Positions 5,465-23,782 of a DNA stretch of 46,666 bases are shown piece after piece (position 1 is the stretch's first letter; each line of letters opens with the position of its first letter). The position numbers were made by a program, and so were the translations under genes. This stretch comes from an uncultured Eubacteriales bacterium (GTDB lineage: Bacteria; Bacillota; Clostridia; Oscillospirales; Acutalibacteraceae), in contig ONDU01000007.1 of the NCBI GenBank assembly GCA_900316615.1, positions 1 through 46,666 of the forward strand. The letters run 5' to 3'. Below the pieces are notes generated by a model. It ran no database searches. It was not told the DNA's origin and saw nothing but the letters and a program-made list of their open reading frames with translations.

Positions 5465-6646
5465 TTATTTACCCTCTTTAAGTTCGTTGATAAAGCTTTC
5501 CACTCTGTTTAAAGCCTCTTTTATATGCTTTACGGAAAATGAGTATGAAACTCTTACAAAGCCCTCGCCGCTGTCACCGAAAGCGTTGCCGGGAACTACG
5601 GCTACACTTTTGGATTTCAGAAGTCTTGTGCAAAATTCCTCTGAGCTTAGGCCTGTACTTTTTATACAGGGAAAGGCATAGAAAGCACCCTCGGGCTCAA
5701 AGCAGCCTAAGCCCATTTCCCTGAAGCGTCTTACAACGAGCCTTCTTCTCATATCGTACTCATCACGCATTTTTTCAATATCCCTGTCGCCGTGCTTCAA
5801 GGCTTCTATAGCGGCATACTGTGCAGTAGTGGGGGCACTCATAATTGCAAACTGGTGAAGCTTTACCATAGCGTCTGTTACAGGCTTGGGAGCAAGAGAA
5901 TATCCCAGACGCCAGCCTGTCATTGAATATGATTTTGAAAAGCCGCTTACAACTACTGTTCTTTCCTTCATACCCTCTATTGACGCAAAGGAAATATGTT
6001 TTTTATTGTTATATGTAAGCTCTGCATAGATTTCGTCTGAAATTACAAAGAGATTGTGTTTACGGACGATTTCTGCAATTTTTTCAAGCTCAGCTTTTTC
6101 CATTATAGCACCTGTGGGGTTGTTGGGGTAGGGCAGAACGAGAAGTCTTGATTTTGATGTTATAACCTTTTCCAAAAGCTCAGGTACAAGCTTGAAATTG
6201 TCCTCCTCTCTTGTTTCGACAACCACGGGAATGCCGTCAGCCATACGCACGAGGGGATCATAGCAGACAAATGACGGCTGAGGGATAAGAACCTCGTCAC
6301 CCTCATTTATAAGACATCTCATAGCAAGGTCTATTGCCTCAGAGCCGCCAACGGTAACAATACATTCATTGTCACCGTTATAGCTTACATTGTACTTTCT
6401 CAGAAAAAAGCTGCATATTTCGTGTCTGAGCTTGGTAAGCCCCTTGTTTGAGGTGTATTTTGTATTTCCCTGCTGTAAAGAGATTATACCTGCCTCTCGT
6501 ACATGCCATGGAGTATTGAAGTCAGGCTCGCCGATACTCAGGGATATAACGTTATCCATTTCGCTTGCAATATCAAAGAATTTTCTTATTCCGGAGGGTT
6601 TTATCTGTTTGATTTTATCGTTTATTATGCTGTTGTAGTCAATCAC
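5465..6646 (-). CDS. PLP-dependent class I/II aminotransferase
   Basis: A 393-residue fold-type I aminotransferase of the aspartate/aromatic type. The cofactor-binding lysine is Lys238 in SGFSKSYSMTGWRLGY. The PLP pyridine-binding Asp204 is in ISDEIY, and the substrate Arg motif lies in the C-terminal VRVSYS. PNNPTG near residue 174 is typical. The exact substrate cannot be told from sequence. The start is GTG at 6646, overlapping by four bases (GTGA) the stop of the Lrp-type regulator upstream. The pairing of an Lrp/AsnC regulator with an aminotransferase suggests amino-acid-responsive control of this operon. Confidence 0.92.
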   Translation of the reverse strand: MIDYNSIINDKIKQIKPSGIRKFFDIASEMDNVISLSIGEPDFNTPWHVREAGIISLQQGNTKYTSNKGLTKLRHEICSFFLRKYNVSYNGDNECIVTVGGSEAIDLAMRCLINEGDEVLIPQPSFVCYDPLVRMADGIPVVVETREEDNFKLVPELLEKVITSKSRLLVLPYPNNPTGAIMEKAELEKIAEIVRKHNLFVISDEIYAELTYNNKKHISFASIEGMKERTVVVSGFSKSYSMTGWRLGYSLAPKPVTDAMVKLHQFAIMSAPTTAQYAAIEALKHGDRDIEKMRDEYDMRRRLVVRRFREMGLGCFEPEGAFYAFPCIKSTGLSSEEFCTRLLKSKSVAVVPGNAFGDSGEGFVRVSYSFSVKHIKEALNRVESFINELKEGK

Positions 6647-7125
6647 AATATAATGCTCCTTTTATCTTCCTGATCTTCCTCATCAAATATAATAATACCG
6701 CTCTCCTTATATGTTCGCAGCTGAAAATGAGTATTTGTGGCAAGTACGCCGTCAAGCGTTGAAAGTCTTTTGGCAACAAACATAGCTATTTCGGTAACGT
6801 TTTCGCCGTTGACCCTTACCATCAGGTCGAAAGAGCCTGCCATAAGGTATACGTTTTCCACTTCTTCAAAAGCCATAACCTGCTTTGCGATTTCGTCAAA
6901 GCCTGTATCCTTTTTGGGAGTTACTTTTAATTCGATAAATGCGGTTGCACCTGCATCTTTAACCTTATCGTAGTCTATAACAGCTCTGTAGCCTCTTATT
7001 ATGCCGTCCTGCTCATACTGTTTTATCTGCTTTTCGACATAATCCTCGGGTTCGTTAATCATTGCGGCAATTTCTCCGTAAGAAAGATTGCTGTTTTCCT
7101 TTAAAATATTCAAAATCTTATCCAT
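6643..7125 (-). CDS. Lrp/AsnC-family transcriptional regulator
   Basis: This 160-residue protein has an N-terminal winged helix-turn-helix (residues about 3-50: LSYGEIAAMINEPEDYVEKQI) and a C-terminal RAM/AsnC ligand-binding domain (about 65-145: AFIELKVTP, then VENVYLMAGSFDLMVRV). The family senses amino acids and assembles as dimers to hexadecamers. The ATG at 7125 is chosen because AAGGAG lies eleven bases upstream. A GTG at 7137 would overlap that site. Its first codons overlap the end of the nitroreductase frame by eight bases, and its own stop overlaps the aminotransferase start, so it is translationally linked both ways. Confidence 0.9.
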   Translation of the reverse strand: MDKILNILKENSNLSYGEIAAMINEPEDYVEKQIKQYEQDGIIRGYRAVIDYDKVKDAGATAFIELKVTPKKDTGFDEIAKQVMAFEEVENVYLMAGSFDLMVRVNGENVTEIAMFVAKRLSTLDGVLATNTHFQLRTYKESGIIIFDEEDQEDKRSIIL

Positions 7126-20694: not shown

Positions 20695-20832
20695 CATAGT
20701 TGTGAGTATCAGAAAATTCGACAGATAATTTGTCTGAGCTTATGTTGGAAATAATACAAAAAGATACGGAAATATAAATGTTTATGTATGTAAGCAAGTT
20801 TAATTTCCGTATAAATGAGAGGTAGAGAGATT

Positions 20833-22593
20833 ATGGATGTATTCGCCGTGCTTAACCTAATCGGCGGACTTGCCCTGTTCCTGTTTGGCATGAACACAAT
20901 GGGCGATGGTCTGGAGAAGCTTTCGGGAGGAAAGCTTGAGAAGCTTCTTGAAAAAATAACGAGCAATAAATTTAAGGGTTTTTTGGTAGGAGCACTTGTG
21001 ACTGGAATTATACAGTCATCGTCTGCAACGACTGTAATGGTAGTAGGCTTTGTAAATTCAGGTATAATGAAGCTGTCAAAGGCTGTCGGAGTAATTATGG
21101 GTGCAAATCTGGGTACTACGGTTACTGCGTGGCTGCTCAGCCTTACAGGAGTACAGGGCGACAGTATACTTATAAGTCTGCTGAAGCCCAGCAGTTTTTC
21201 TCCGATACTTGCAATAATAGGCATAGGATTGGTTATGTTCGGCAAAAAGGATCCTAAGAAAAAGGATATAGGCACGATACTTATAGGCTTTGCCGTTCTT
21301 ATGATAGGTATGACAACAATGAGCGATGCGGTAAAGCCGCTGGCAGATATACCGGAGTTCAAGAACGTACTTCTGATGTTCTCAAACCCCGTATTCGGTG
21401 TGCTTATAGGAATAGTTTTTACGGCTATAATACAAAGCTCATCTGCGACTGTCGGAATTTTACAGGCTTTTTCCGCTACGGGAAGCGTTACATATTCAAG
21501 TGCAATACCTATACTTTTAGGAGTTAATATAGGTGCCTGTGTGCCTACGCTTCTTTCCTGCATAGGAGCGAAGAAGAACGCAAAGCGTGCCGCTCTTATC
21601 CATCTTTACTTTAATCTGATAGGTAAGGGTTCTATGCTTGTCATTTTTTATATACTCAATGCATTCCTGCATTTTGCATTCCTCGGAGATGCGGTAGACC
21701 CTGTAAAAATAGCTATTGTACACACAGTATACAGCGTTACGGCAACTGCGGTATTCCTGCCCCTGAGCAAGTGGCTTGAAAAGCTTACTTACCTTACAAT
21801 CAAGGATAAGGATAACGAGGACGATACACCCTTTATTGACGAGCGTTTTCTCAATACACCTGCGGTTGCAACGTCACAGTGCAACGCTATGTCAAACAAA
21901 ATGGCACTGCTCTCCGAAACAACTATAAATGATGCGTTTATGGTTCTTGCAAATTACCGTGAGGATTTAGCTGATAAGATAAGGGACAACGAGAAAAAAA
22001 TAGATGTCTATGAAGATGTTCTGGGTACGTATCTTGTAAAGCTGTGCAGTAAAAATCTTACGCCGAAGGACAGTGCAATGGCATCTAAAATGCTTCACTC
22101 CATAGGCGACTTTGAGCGTATAAGCGACCATGCGGTCAACATTATAAACGTTGCCGAGGAAATGCATGAAAAGGATATATTCTTCTCGGAAAGTGCCGTA
22201 AATGAGCTTGATGTCGTAATATGTGCGTTGATAGAGGTCGTTGACAATGCAATTAAGGCATATATAAATAATGATATAGAGCTTGCAAAAAAAATAGAGC
22301 CTCTCGAACAGGTTATAGACAAAAGAGTAAACGAGCTCAGACAAAGGCATATAAAAAGACTTCGTGAAGGAAAATGTACCATAGAGCTTGGCTTTATATT
22401 CTCAGACCTGCTCAATTCCATTGAAAGAGTTTCCGACCACTGCTCCAATATAGCCGTATGTATGATACAGCTTAAAGAGGAGAGTTTTGAAACGCATGAA
22501 TATCTGTATGAATTCAAGCACGATGATGACGGAACCTTCAAGAACGACTATAAGGATTATAAGAAGAAATATGTTCTTCCTCAGAATGTCTGA
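20833..22593 (+). CDS. Na/Pi cotransporter family protein with PhoU-like domain
   Basis: The 586-residue protein has an N-terminal NptA/NPT2-type transporter domain with the two QSSSAT repeats, GIIQSSSATTVMVVGF near residue 64 and AIIQSSSATVGIL near 206. A C-terminal PhoU-like helical domain (about 350-560) contains the repeats IGDFERISDHAVNI and LNSIERVSDHCSNI, which bind metal clusters in PhoU proteins. It probably imports phosphate, or regulates phosphate entry, with sodium. No other phosphate genes are adjacent. The ATG at 20833 is chosen over one six codons earlier because the purine-rich AGAGG site lies between them. Confidence 0.9.
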   Translation: MDVFAVLNLIGGLALFLFGMNTMGDGLEKLSGGKLEKLLEKITSNKFKGFLVGALVTGIIQSSSATTVMVVGFVNSGIMKLSKAVGVIMGANLGTTVTAWLLSLTGVQGDSILISLLKPSSFSPILAIIGIGLVMFGKKDPKKKDIGTILIGFAVLMIGMTTMSDAVKPLADIPEFKNVLLMFSNPVFGVLIGIVFTAIIQSSSATVGILQAFSATGSVTYSSAIPILLGVNIGACVPTLLSCIGAKKNAKRAALIHLYFNLIGKGSMLVIFYILNAFLHFAFLGDAVDPVKIAIVHTVYSVTATAVFLPLSKWLEKLTYLTIKDKDNEDDTPFIDERFLNTPAVATSQCNAMSNKMALLSETTINDAFMVLANYREDLADKIRDNEKKIDVYEDVLGTYLVKLCSKNLTPKDSAMASKMLHSIGDFERISDHAVNIINVAEEMHEKDIFFSESAVNELDVVICALIEVVDNAIKAYINNDIELAKKIEPLEQVIDKRVNELRQRHIKRLREGKCTIELGFIFSDLLNSIERVSDHCSNIAVCMIQLKEESFETHEYLYEFKHDDDGTFKNDYKDYKKKYVLPQNV

Positions 22594-22630: not shown

Positions 22631-22674
22631 AAAATACGGGCAATGCAGCAAAATCTGCGTTGCCCGTATTTTCA
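22631..22674 (+). terminator. Terminator of the Na/Pi cotransporter gene
   Basis: Nested stem: outer arms AAAATACGGGCAA and TTGCCCGTATTTT, inner arms GCAG and CTGC. Confidence 0.8.
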
Positions 22675-22739
22675 GTAGAATTACAAATGAATTGAAAATA
22701 AATTATTCATCAAAAAATTTACAGTCTGTGCGTCCATGG

Positions 22740-22839
22740 GCGATTGCAGACCACGGCAGCTTTACTGCCGTGAAAATTAAAGCGTATACGCTTTAATTTG
22801 AAAAAAAGCAATACCTTGCTTTTTTTCGTCTGCAATCGC
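22740..22839. repeat. 100-base four-way-junction (cloverleaf-like) element
   Basis: An outer 12-base stem (GCGATTGCAGAC at 22740-22751 with GTCTGCAATCGC at 22828-22839) encloses three hairpins placed end to end. These are 22752-22772 (8 base pairs), the 26-base perfect palindrome 22774-22799, and 22800-22827 (12 base pairs, loop TACC). Apart from the loops, only base 22773 is unpaired. It lies in the 382-base gap between the cotransporter and esterase genes. It has no tRNA consensus loops. A shorter relative is at 18839-18875. Confidence 0.85.
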
Positions 22840-22911
22840 AGCCTGAGTGTAGCAGAGAAAGCTTTGTATGTTAATCATATTAAAAATATTATATAAAAGT
22901 TAATAGTGATA

Positions 22912-22975: not shown

Positions 22976-23782
22976 ATGAAAAAAGAAGAAATTGTTACCA
23001 TGTCGCTGCCCTATCCCATAGGCGGAAGCAAAAAAGTACGTGTATACATTCCTGAACACGAAGAGGGAGAAAAATTCCCTGTTATATATATGACAGACGG
23101 ACAAAATCTGTTTGAAGATGATACTGTACAATTCGGCTGCTGGTACACCCGTGAAGCTGTAAGAAGCGAACGTCAGAAAAGCGGCAGAGCAGCTGTCATA
23201 GTAGGAATTCACAACGATGAAAGCGACTTGCAGCGTACCTGTGAGCTTACACCTGCGAGTATCGGCGAAATTCCTGTTCCCGATGATGCTCCTGAGGAGG
23301 TAAAAAAAATGCTCAGACCCGCAGGTGAAATTTTTGACGATTTTGTTGTCAATACGCTGAAGCCTGTCATTGAAGAAAGATTTCCCGTAAAGACAGGCAG
23401 AAACAATACTGCATTCTGCGGAAGCTCGTGCGGAGGACTTGCAGCATTTTTCATAGCTGTAAGCAACCCTGAAATATTCTGTGCTTCAGGAGTGTTTTCG
23501 CCTGTATTTTTCATATATTCAAAGGAGGATATGAAAAACTGGATTGTTTCAAAGGTCAGCAAAAATATGCCATGCCTCTATATATACACAGGTGCTGCCG
23601 ATGAACTCGAAAAGCAAATCTGTGAGAGCGTTGAACAGACATACGGCATTCTGGAGGAAAATTATCCTTCAGATATGCTCAAAAAGGTAGTCATTCCCGA
23701 ATATAAACACCACGAAACCGCATGGATGCCCGTTTTCAGAGATTTTCTTGAAATGTTCCTTTCGCTCGGTGAAGGAAAATAA
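22976..23782 (+). CDS. Putative esterase (alpha/beta hydrolase, esterase D/Fes-like)
   Basis: This 268-residue cytoplasmic protein belongs to the putative esterase family (PF00756 type). The N-terminal strand block KKVRVYIPEHEEGEKFPVIYMTDGQ is followed by the nucleophile elbow GSSCGGL near residue 143 (catalytic Ser) and a C-terminal HHETAW near 249 carrying the likely catalytic His. The acid residue is probably Asp in TGAADE near 208. Relatives hydrolyse short acyl or feruloyl esters or enterobactin. With no signal peptide and a sugar importer immediately downstream, deacylation of an imported sugar ester is plausible but inferred. AAGGAGAG precedes the ATG by seven bases. Confidence 0.85.
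   Translation: MKKEEIVTMSLPYPIGGSKKVRVYIPEHEEGEKFPVIYMTDGQNLFEDDTVQFGCWYTREAVRSERQKSGRAAVIVGIHNDESDLQRTCELTPASIGEIPVPDDAPEEVKKMLRPAGEIFDDFVVNTLKPVIEERFPVKTGRNNTAFCGSSCGGLAAFFIAVSNPEIFCASGVFSPVFFIYSKEDMKNWIVSKVSKNMPCLYIYTGAADELEKQICESVEQTYGILEENYPSDMLKKVVIPEYKHHETAWMPVFRDFLEMFLSLGEGK

Follow-up and report, generated by a model that had tools for sequence, protein, structure and literature searches.

The 100 bases at 22,740-22,839 of the window, by which we mean the whole stretch of 46,666 nucleotides that was analysed, are one copy of a repeat that occurs many times in its genome. The best reading, to which we give about an even chance, is a dispersed, non-coding, intergenic repeat, probably once mobile, that is conserved as a DNA four-way junction. 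The way in which the copies evolve suggests that the thing kept is a folded DNA shape and not an RNA.

Architecture of the element and its surroundings

The outer stem is formed by GCGATTGCAGAC (22,740-22,751, plus strand, like all features given here), which pairs over 12 bp with GTCTGCAATCGC (22,828-22,839). Three hairpins lie within it. Hairpin 1 (22,752-22,772; arms 22,752-22,759 and 22,765-22,772) is G+C-rich, of the CACGGC type, with 8 bp and a 5-nt loop. After a single unpaired base, A22773, comes hairpin 2 (22,774-22,799; arms 22,774-22,784 and 22,789-22,799), which has an A+T-rich base. Hairpin 3 (22,800-22,827; arms 22,800-22,811 and 22,816-22,827) is an A-tract hairpin of 12 bp with a 4-nt loop. 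Folding confirms this arrangement of a 12-bp stem, three hairpins and one unpaired base, which an earlier, sequence-only reading had proposed. That reading gave hairpin 2 up to 13 bp, because its 26 bases form a perfect palindrome; it is folded as 11 bp closed by a 4-nt loop. The RNA minimum free energy (MFE) of 22,730-22,850 is -60.3 kcal/mol on the plus strand and -62.8 kcal/mol on the minus strand (z = -9.76 and -10.70 against dinucleotide shuffles), and none of 200 shuffles folded as well on either strand. The remark that such a structure is far beyond a terminator was right. Directly after the window copy there is no T-run of the kind that, behind a G+C-rich hairpin, marks an intrinsic terminator.

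The first 10 stem bases, GCGATTGCAG, hardly vary across the 30 copies of alignment A1 or in alignment A3. Arms of this sequence occur elsewhere in the window as well, singly and with one mismatch, at 1807, 16736, 28370, 31345, 35397, 35589, 36448 and 38259. These eight and the element's own two exact arms make 10, versus 3.0 expected and a maximum of 7 in 100 shuffles. Beside many copies of the repeat there is a tail motif, which belongs to an imperfect outer extension. In the window the motif reads AGCCTGAGTGTAGCAG (22,840-22,855), the common form being AGCCTGAGCGAAGCCG. At least 9 positions of its 13-base core were matched in 94 of 139 copies within 30 bases, counting the better side, and in 8 of 695 random stretches of 30 bases, taken singly, that served as control.

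The gene upstream (20,815-22,593) encodes a Na+/Pi cotransporter with a PhoU domain and the gene downstream (22,976-23,782) a putative esterase, both on the plus strand. As had been stated earlier, the upstream gene has a terminator-like hairpin of its own, at 22,631-22,672, read by eye and separate from the element. The window copy has an ortholog at the same site (L067) in RUG158 (G001), a genome of the same genus. Over the copy and 40 bases on each side the two are 83.5% identical, and the differences lie mainly in the loops and flanks. The window's gene pair is not found side by side in the congeners G002-G005, so these genomes provide no empty site.

Copy number and distribution

The genome of the window (G000; 1.83 Mb in 98 contigs, about 91% complete) and RUG158 both carry many copies. 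The copy finder accepted a place if it had three hairpins, if its stem was complementary at 8 or more of 10 positions and if its MFE did not exceed -36. It placed 86 distinct copies in G000 and 108 in RUG158; both counts are lower bounds from the examined stretches. Because of these thresholds, and since both orthologs of a pair had to pass them, decayed copies are missed and the pairing described below looks cleaner than it may be. With an earlier, stricter finder the numbers were 62 copies in G000, 81 in RUG158 and 29 ortholog pairs, and its loop and double-change results ran in the same direction. The hairpin stems are mostly 9-10, 10-11 and 9-10 bp long and the loops mostly 3-4 nt (171 placements, some overlapping).

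Other searches agree. In G000, blastn with the element returned at least 41 matches (best 40 of 120 candidates scored). R1, a covariance model built from 10 copies, had 148 matches in G000 and 147 in RUG158, with both strands counted and the best 150 candidates per genome scored, so that neither figure is a count of copies. In four further congeners R1 matched once, in G004 (E 3.6e-9; a genome listed with 7% contamination), and not at all in the remaining three. Across 250 genomes of the taxonomic family (best 17 candidates per genome), R1 matched G000, RUG158 and two others, the latter with one weak match each. Across the order, a mixed model of this and a second family (R2; see below) matched G000 alone of 394 genomes, a result of little weight as the best 10 candidates per genome were scored. 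In a stem-pattern scan 62 of 64 stretches among the matches listed came from RUG158, and there may be carriers beyond it. The pattern matches in a Gemmatimonadaceae record (L108) and in Caulobacter (L141) were rejected as copies, being other structures, and so was the weak match in G072, a single hairpin. One copy (L147:11215-11307), adjoining the family tail motif, lies near the end of an 11.9-kb IMG/VR contig and may be host DNA next to a provirus.

A finder blind to sequence, which looks for a perfect stem plus three hairpins, located 63 distinct places in 384 kb of G000 and 97 in 585 kb of RUG158, in records that overlap and were mostly picked for holding copies. It found no such structure in 183 kb of base-shuffled records of the same kind. 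The sequence-only reading had conceded that the fold would be a chance local structure if it had neither a second copy in related genomes nor conserved pairing; the copies are many and their pairing covaries.

Pairing and covariation

The hairpin sequences vary widely among copies, and 98.5% of the cells of the model alignment pair. In alignment A3, 34 of 41 model pairs have changed on both sides, among them 9 of 9 in helix 2, 11 of 11 in helix 3 (hairpin 2) and 9 of 9 in helix 4. Since A3 includes both strands of copies, hairpins 1 and 3 are each spread over helices 2 and 4, and the 126 distinct rows of A3 overstate independence. The covariation score is 0.624, versus 0.165 for shuffled alignments; slid controls do not exceed 0.09.

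There are hardly any wobble pairs. They make up 27 of 8016 predicted pairs (0.34%) in 194 folded copies, whereas a control set of 56 hairpins resembling terminators, taken from the same DNA, has 60 of 637 (9.4%); the finder favours well-paired copies, and the control hairpins were likewise picked by energy. In the set of 171 placements the wobbles are equally divided between copy orientations (13 and 12). Summed over the table, wobbles fill about 30 of the 5135 cells of the model alignment, which is below the roughly 1.5% of cells that do not pair.

No Rfam family matched the window at gathering score, and the 10 sub-threshold matches listed at the element all have E-values of 1 or more. A known Rfam family was accordingly rejected as the identity of the element.

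Change between orthologous copies

Comparison of 53 ortholog pairs from G000 and RUG158 bears out the expectation of compensatory changes among copies. In these pairs 84 base pairs have changed on both sides and are still Watson-Crick, versus 26 one-sided changes; there are 11 other double changes, 2037 unchanged pairs and 15 more in gaps. The copies are related, and the change counts are not independent. Transversions account for 50 of the 84 both-sided changes, and for these no wobble step is possible. Transitions make up 40% of the both-sided changes, compared with 48% in the flanks within 40 bases (P 0.19) and 57% further out (P 0.003). Thus, the transition share does not exceed that of the flanks and the difference runs opposite to a wobble route.

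The pairs change together, and they change less than their neighbours. Indeed, 121 of 2158 scored pairs (84 + 26 + 11) have changed, while the flanks diverge by 19% per site within 40 bases and by 12% beyond (first 35 ortholog pairs; 8 flank stretches that were too different were set aside, and the outer part includes genes).

The loops turn over in their own manner. The 53 pairs contain 159 hairpins with 117 changed loops, 92 of equal length. In 13 of the 92 the loop is the exact reverse complement of that in the other species, whereas permutation predicts 5.0 (P 0.0009); if one mismatch is allowed, the numbers are 34 and 18.9 (P 0.0001). In 12 of the 13 exact inversions the 8 nt of the 5' arm next to the loop are unchanged. 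Earlier, smaller sets of 36 and 35 pairs gave results in the same direction (exact loop inversion 8 vs 3.9, P 0.03). The element as a whole keeps its orientation in all 53 ortholog pairs, none of which shows inversion of the complete junction. Template switching, in which the polymerase passes from one arm of an inverted repeat to the other, has been put forward to explain why arms become homogenised, why both of them change and why loops or spacers turn up inverted (PMC8794818, PMC8604942). Loop inversion together with both-arm change is the kind of trace that it is proposed to leave (PMC8794818).

Copies also appear to exchange sequence between loci. Two copies of G000, C28:16950 and C28:22784, are 97.9% identical; the homology ends at the stem ends, each site's flanks match those of RUG158, and the resident orthologs in RUG158 are 86% and 82% identical to them. 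A paralog is closer than the ortholog for 20 of 53 copies, by at least 5% in 7, although this comparison takes the best of many and leans towards paralogs. Because such exchange can replace both arms at once, the counts were repeated for the 25 pairs in which the ortholog leads every paralog by at least 2%. These have 19 double, 6 single and 3 other changes, and 6 exact loop inversions versus 2.5 expected (P 0.02). The double-change and loop-inversion signal therefore persists in them, in weaker form.

Placement relative to genes

The 194 copies lie between co-directional genes in 133 cases, between convergent genes in 25 and between divergent genes in 10; a further 19 overlap simple ORF calls and 7 have no gene on one side. 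Divergent gaps are 10 of 159 among those that bear copies, versus 40 of 158 among copy-less gaps (at least 120 bases; P 2.5e-6). Co-directional copies lie a median of 43 bases from the upstream stop and 79 from the next start. By a heuristic that uses hairpin composition, 65 of the 133 are in the same orientation as the genes and 68 in the opposite one. The strand preference relative to genes that belongs to a structured cis-RNA is not seen. T-runs, counted anywhere within 45 bases, occur downstream of 43 of the 133 copies versus upstream of 20. This excess keeps a role in transcripts alive. A-runs occur downstream of 44 copies versus upstream of 27.

Mobility

The outer stem of 10-12 bp supplies the terminal inverted repeats expected of a MITE, and like REP/BIME sequences the copies are high-copy intergenic palindromes. 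The Y1 transposase domain of RAYT, PF01797, is absent in the three carriers G000 (about 91% complete), RUG158 and G111 (see below), and an IS200/IS605 or RAYT origin was rejected for that reason. The domain is present in G002, which has no repeat match, and the control search was positive in 5 of 14 genomes. Nine candidate empty sites in RUG158 resolved into three copies that are shared after all, one that is partly deleted and five absences. At these five, where the sites carry larger intergenic indels or rearrangements, inspection by eye revealed no target-site duplication, clean excision or pre-insertion site. The window copy with its flanks had no match among 50,697 phage and 72,556 plasmid records, and it was therefore rejected as phage or plasmid cargo. 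A spreading mechanism is thus inferred rather than read from a Y1 gene, a target duplication, a clean excision or a phage or plasmid match.

Exact stem arms seldom occur without a partner (6 of 317, none tied to a transposase, in stretches chosen around copies), and the idea that the arm is an uptake sequence was rejected on this ground. Against that rejection stands the excess of GCGATTGCAG arms in the window, most of them single, which is given above.

A second family and other hairpin structures

The same architecture is found with unrelated sequence in another genus of the taxonomic family. A weak match in G111 proved to be one of about 40 matched places there (56 matches, best 40 of 203 candidates) with a stem plus three hairpins, as judged from 20 that were viewed, and with the stems GGCGAAAGCCC, GGCGAGCCC or GGCGGTTTT (L181-L223). 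A CAAAAGC...GCTTTTG hairpin is central in most of the 20 copies viewed. Wobbles amount to 27 of 1289 pairs (2.1%) in 31 copies chosen by this hairpin, with some flank pairs included. R2 had 117 matches in G111, with both strands counted, and none in 7 congeners of G111 or in 40 other genomes of the taxonomic family.

Other hairpin structures were observed in passing. In RUG158, L068:1464-1605 and L109:5045-5150 are junctions whose outer stems differ from that of the family: one has 35 perfect bp, the other, GGCAGGCGGCTGCATAC, 17 bp. Hairpin-rich intergenic sequence occurs in more than one place of that genome (L110 near 1489-1660, and the RUG158 side of L100 near 6577-6758), consisting of a AAGGGCTTTGCCCTT-like part followed by CAAAGGC...GCCTTTGG and AAGCCTTTG motifs. 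In G000 (C52), a nearly perfect single hairpin of about 25 bp with a 4-nt loop lies just upstream of a family copy (L159:17327-17378).

Interpretation and alternatives

The sequence-only reading had left three options. The cruciform-forming DNA repeat fits best, the element being multi-copy, strand-symmetric and almost purely Watson-Crick with inverting loops. The near-absence of wobbles, the random orientation and the flipping loops point to a strand-symmetric constraint at the level of DNA. A small structured RNA is weakened, as neither wobbles nor orientation have a strand bias and Rfam has no match. A non-autonomous mobile element is plausible in view of the dispersed copies, the exchange between loci and the one clear pair of copies whose homology goes no further than the stem; a transposase, a target duplication and a clean empty site were not found in the searches above.

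On the preferred reading, the conserved unit would be a DNA four-way junction made of the GCGATTGCAG stem and three nearly perfect hairpins. The hairpins would form in DNA, either as a cruciform or in the single strands of a replication fork; formation of the junction in cells is a prediction from the fold. Polymerase template switching between arms would then repair, copy and invert hairpins, and exchange between copies would spread the variants. Earlier, the element may have spread as a non-autonomous repeat, selfish or domesticated, through an enzyme recognising the stem or the junction, and its tolerated niche would be behind genes and away from divergent promoters. Several points count against this reading. 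The searches described above brought up neither a Y1 transposase nor a target-site duplication or clean pre-insertion site, and no ortholog pair shows the complete junction inverted. Exchange between copies makes both-arm changes possible without template switching, copies that lie behind genes with T-runs downstream fit a transcript role too, and the wobble frequency of the G111 family is less extreme.

The main rival is a strand-symmetric RNA role, in which the element would act at mRNA 3' ends on either strand, as a bidirectional terminator or an end-protecting structure, and would be perfect because both strands are used. The shorter distance to the upstream stop than to the next start, the rarity between divergent genes and the T-runs downstream all agree with it. 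However, co-directional genes flank 133 of the 168 placed copies, a setting in which a single strand would suffice, and yet orientation is even and wobbles are nearly absent. Furthermore, 90 of the 133 have no T-run in the 45 bases that follow, A-runs also become commoner there, the upstream gene in the window already has its terminator-like hairpin before the element, and no Rfam family is matched at gathering score. We regard this role as unlikely. It is improbable, in our estimate, that the element is an old repeat with neither function nor mobility of its own, whose arms are kept identical by mutation alone through template switching and gene conversion. The both-arm changes, the loop inversions and the closer paralogs, the latter from a best-of-many comparison, are what such a process would yield, but the pairs change less than the adjoining 40 bases, stem and loop lengths keep to a narrow range, the GCGATTGCAG stem is conserved and a second family has the same architecture. 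The constant number of hairpins is no evidence here, since the finder requires three.

If the element were a classical MITE, or a REP-like repeat that a known transposase mobilises, it would likewise be dispersed, intergenic, palindromic and limited to a lineage, with homology stopping at the stem as in the one clear copy pair. We consider this origin very improbable: PF01797, which is tied to the published REP-RAYT link, is absent from the three carriers and present in the match-less G002, and no target duplication was seen by eye. Going beyond the preferred reading, we tentatively entertain, as a possibility short of likely, a class of elements defined by architecture, a stem and three perfect hairpins of lineage-specific sequence, in which dedicated machinery would read the DNA four-way junction to propagate and edit the element. 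The GCGATTGCAG family and that of G111 would be two members.

Relation to known repeats and significance

Among known repeats, those of REP type in bacteria and the hairpin elements of organelles come nearest. REPs are described as 20-40 bp palindromes tied to RAYT; like the present element, REP/BIME sequences with RAYT are high-copy, intergenic, palindromic and lineage-specific, and they are proposed to be non-autonomous mobile DNA (PMC2817692, PMC3733652). Unlike a REP, the element is about 95 bp long, carries three hairpins on a stem and has no Y1 transposase. The short palindromic repeats or repetitive hairpin elements of mitochondria and plastids are also dispersed, mostly in non-coding DNA, with 3-5-nt loops and sometimes double or multiple, and in sponges complementary substitutions between copies have been reported; those described in the accessible parts of these papers are mainly single or double hairpins, with no fixed stem-plus-three-hairpin unit (PMC2670323, PMC2800124). 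A survey of bacterial intergenic stem-loops, which sought single stem-loops and described three new families in Yersiniae, Bordetellae and Enterococci, found them concentrated 3' of genes and in part repeated, as is the case here (PMC1590033). In the rRNA and microRNA genes treated in one study of template switching, loop inversions are presented as rare and the evidence for the upkeep of short stems is called circumstantial by the authors (PMC8794818). In contrast, inversions are common here, in a dispersed DNA repeat nearly without wobbles. We found no prior description of such a stem-plus-three-hairpin repeat in the open-access literature, most subscription papers being outside the search.

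Integron attC sites work as folded single-stranded DNA, with structure conserved above sequence, and each is one imperfect hairpin whose extrahelical bases set the strand. The element resembles them in that structure is kept more than sequence, and differs in that it is no single imperfect hairpin with extrahelical bases.

Perfect multi-hairpin repeats are commonly taken as RNA or junk. Two species share dozens of orthologous copies in which paired arms change in concert and loops flip, and this makes one natural system available for measuring template switching, the extrusion of cruciforms and the exchange between copies. Since the shape recurs in another genus with unrelated sequence, it becomes testable whether DNA junctions as such are recognised by some enzyme. 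A caution follows for structured RNAs, which are usually proved by covariation: covariation alone may stem from DNA.
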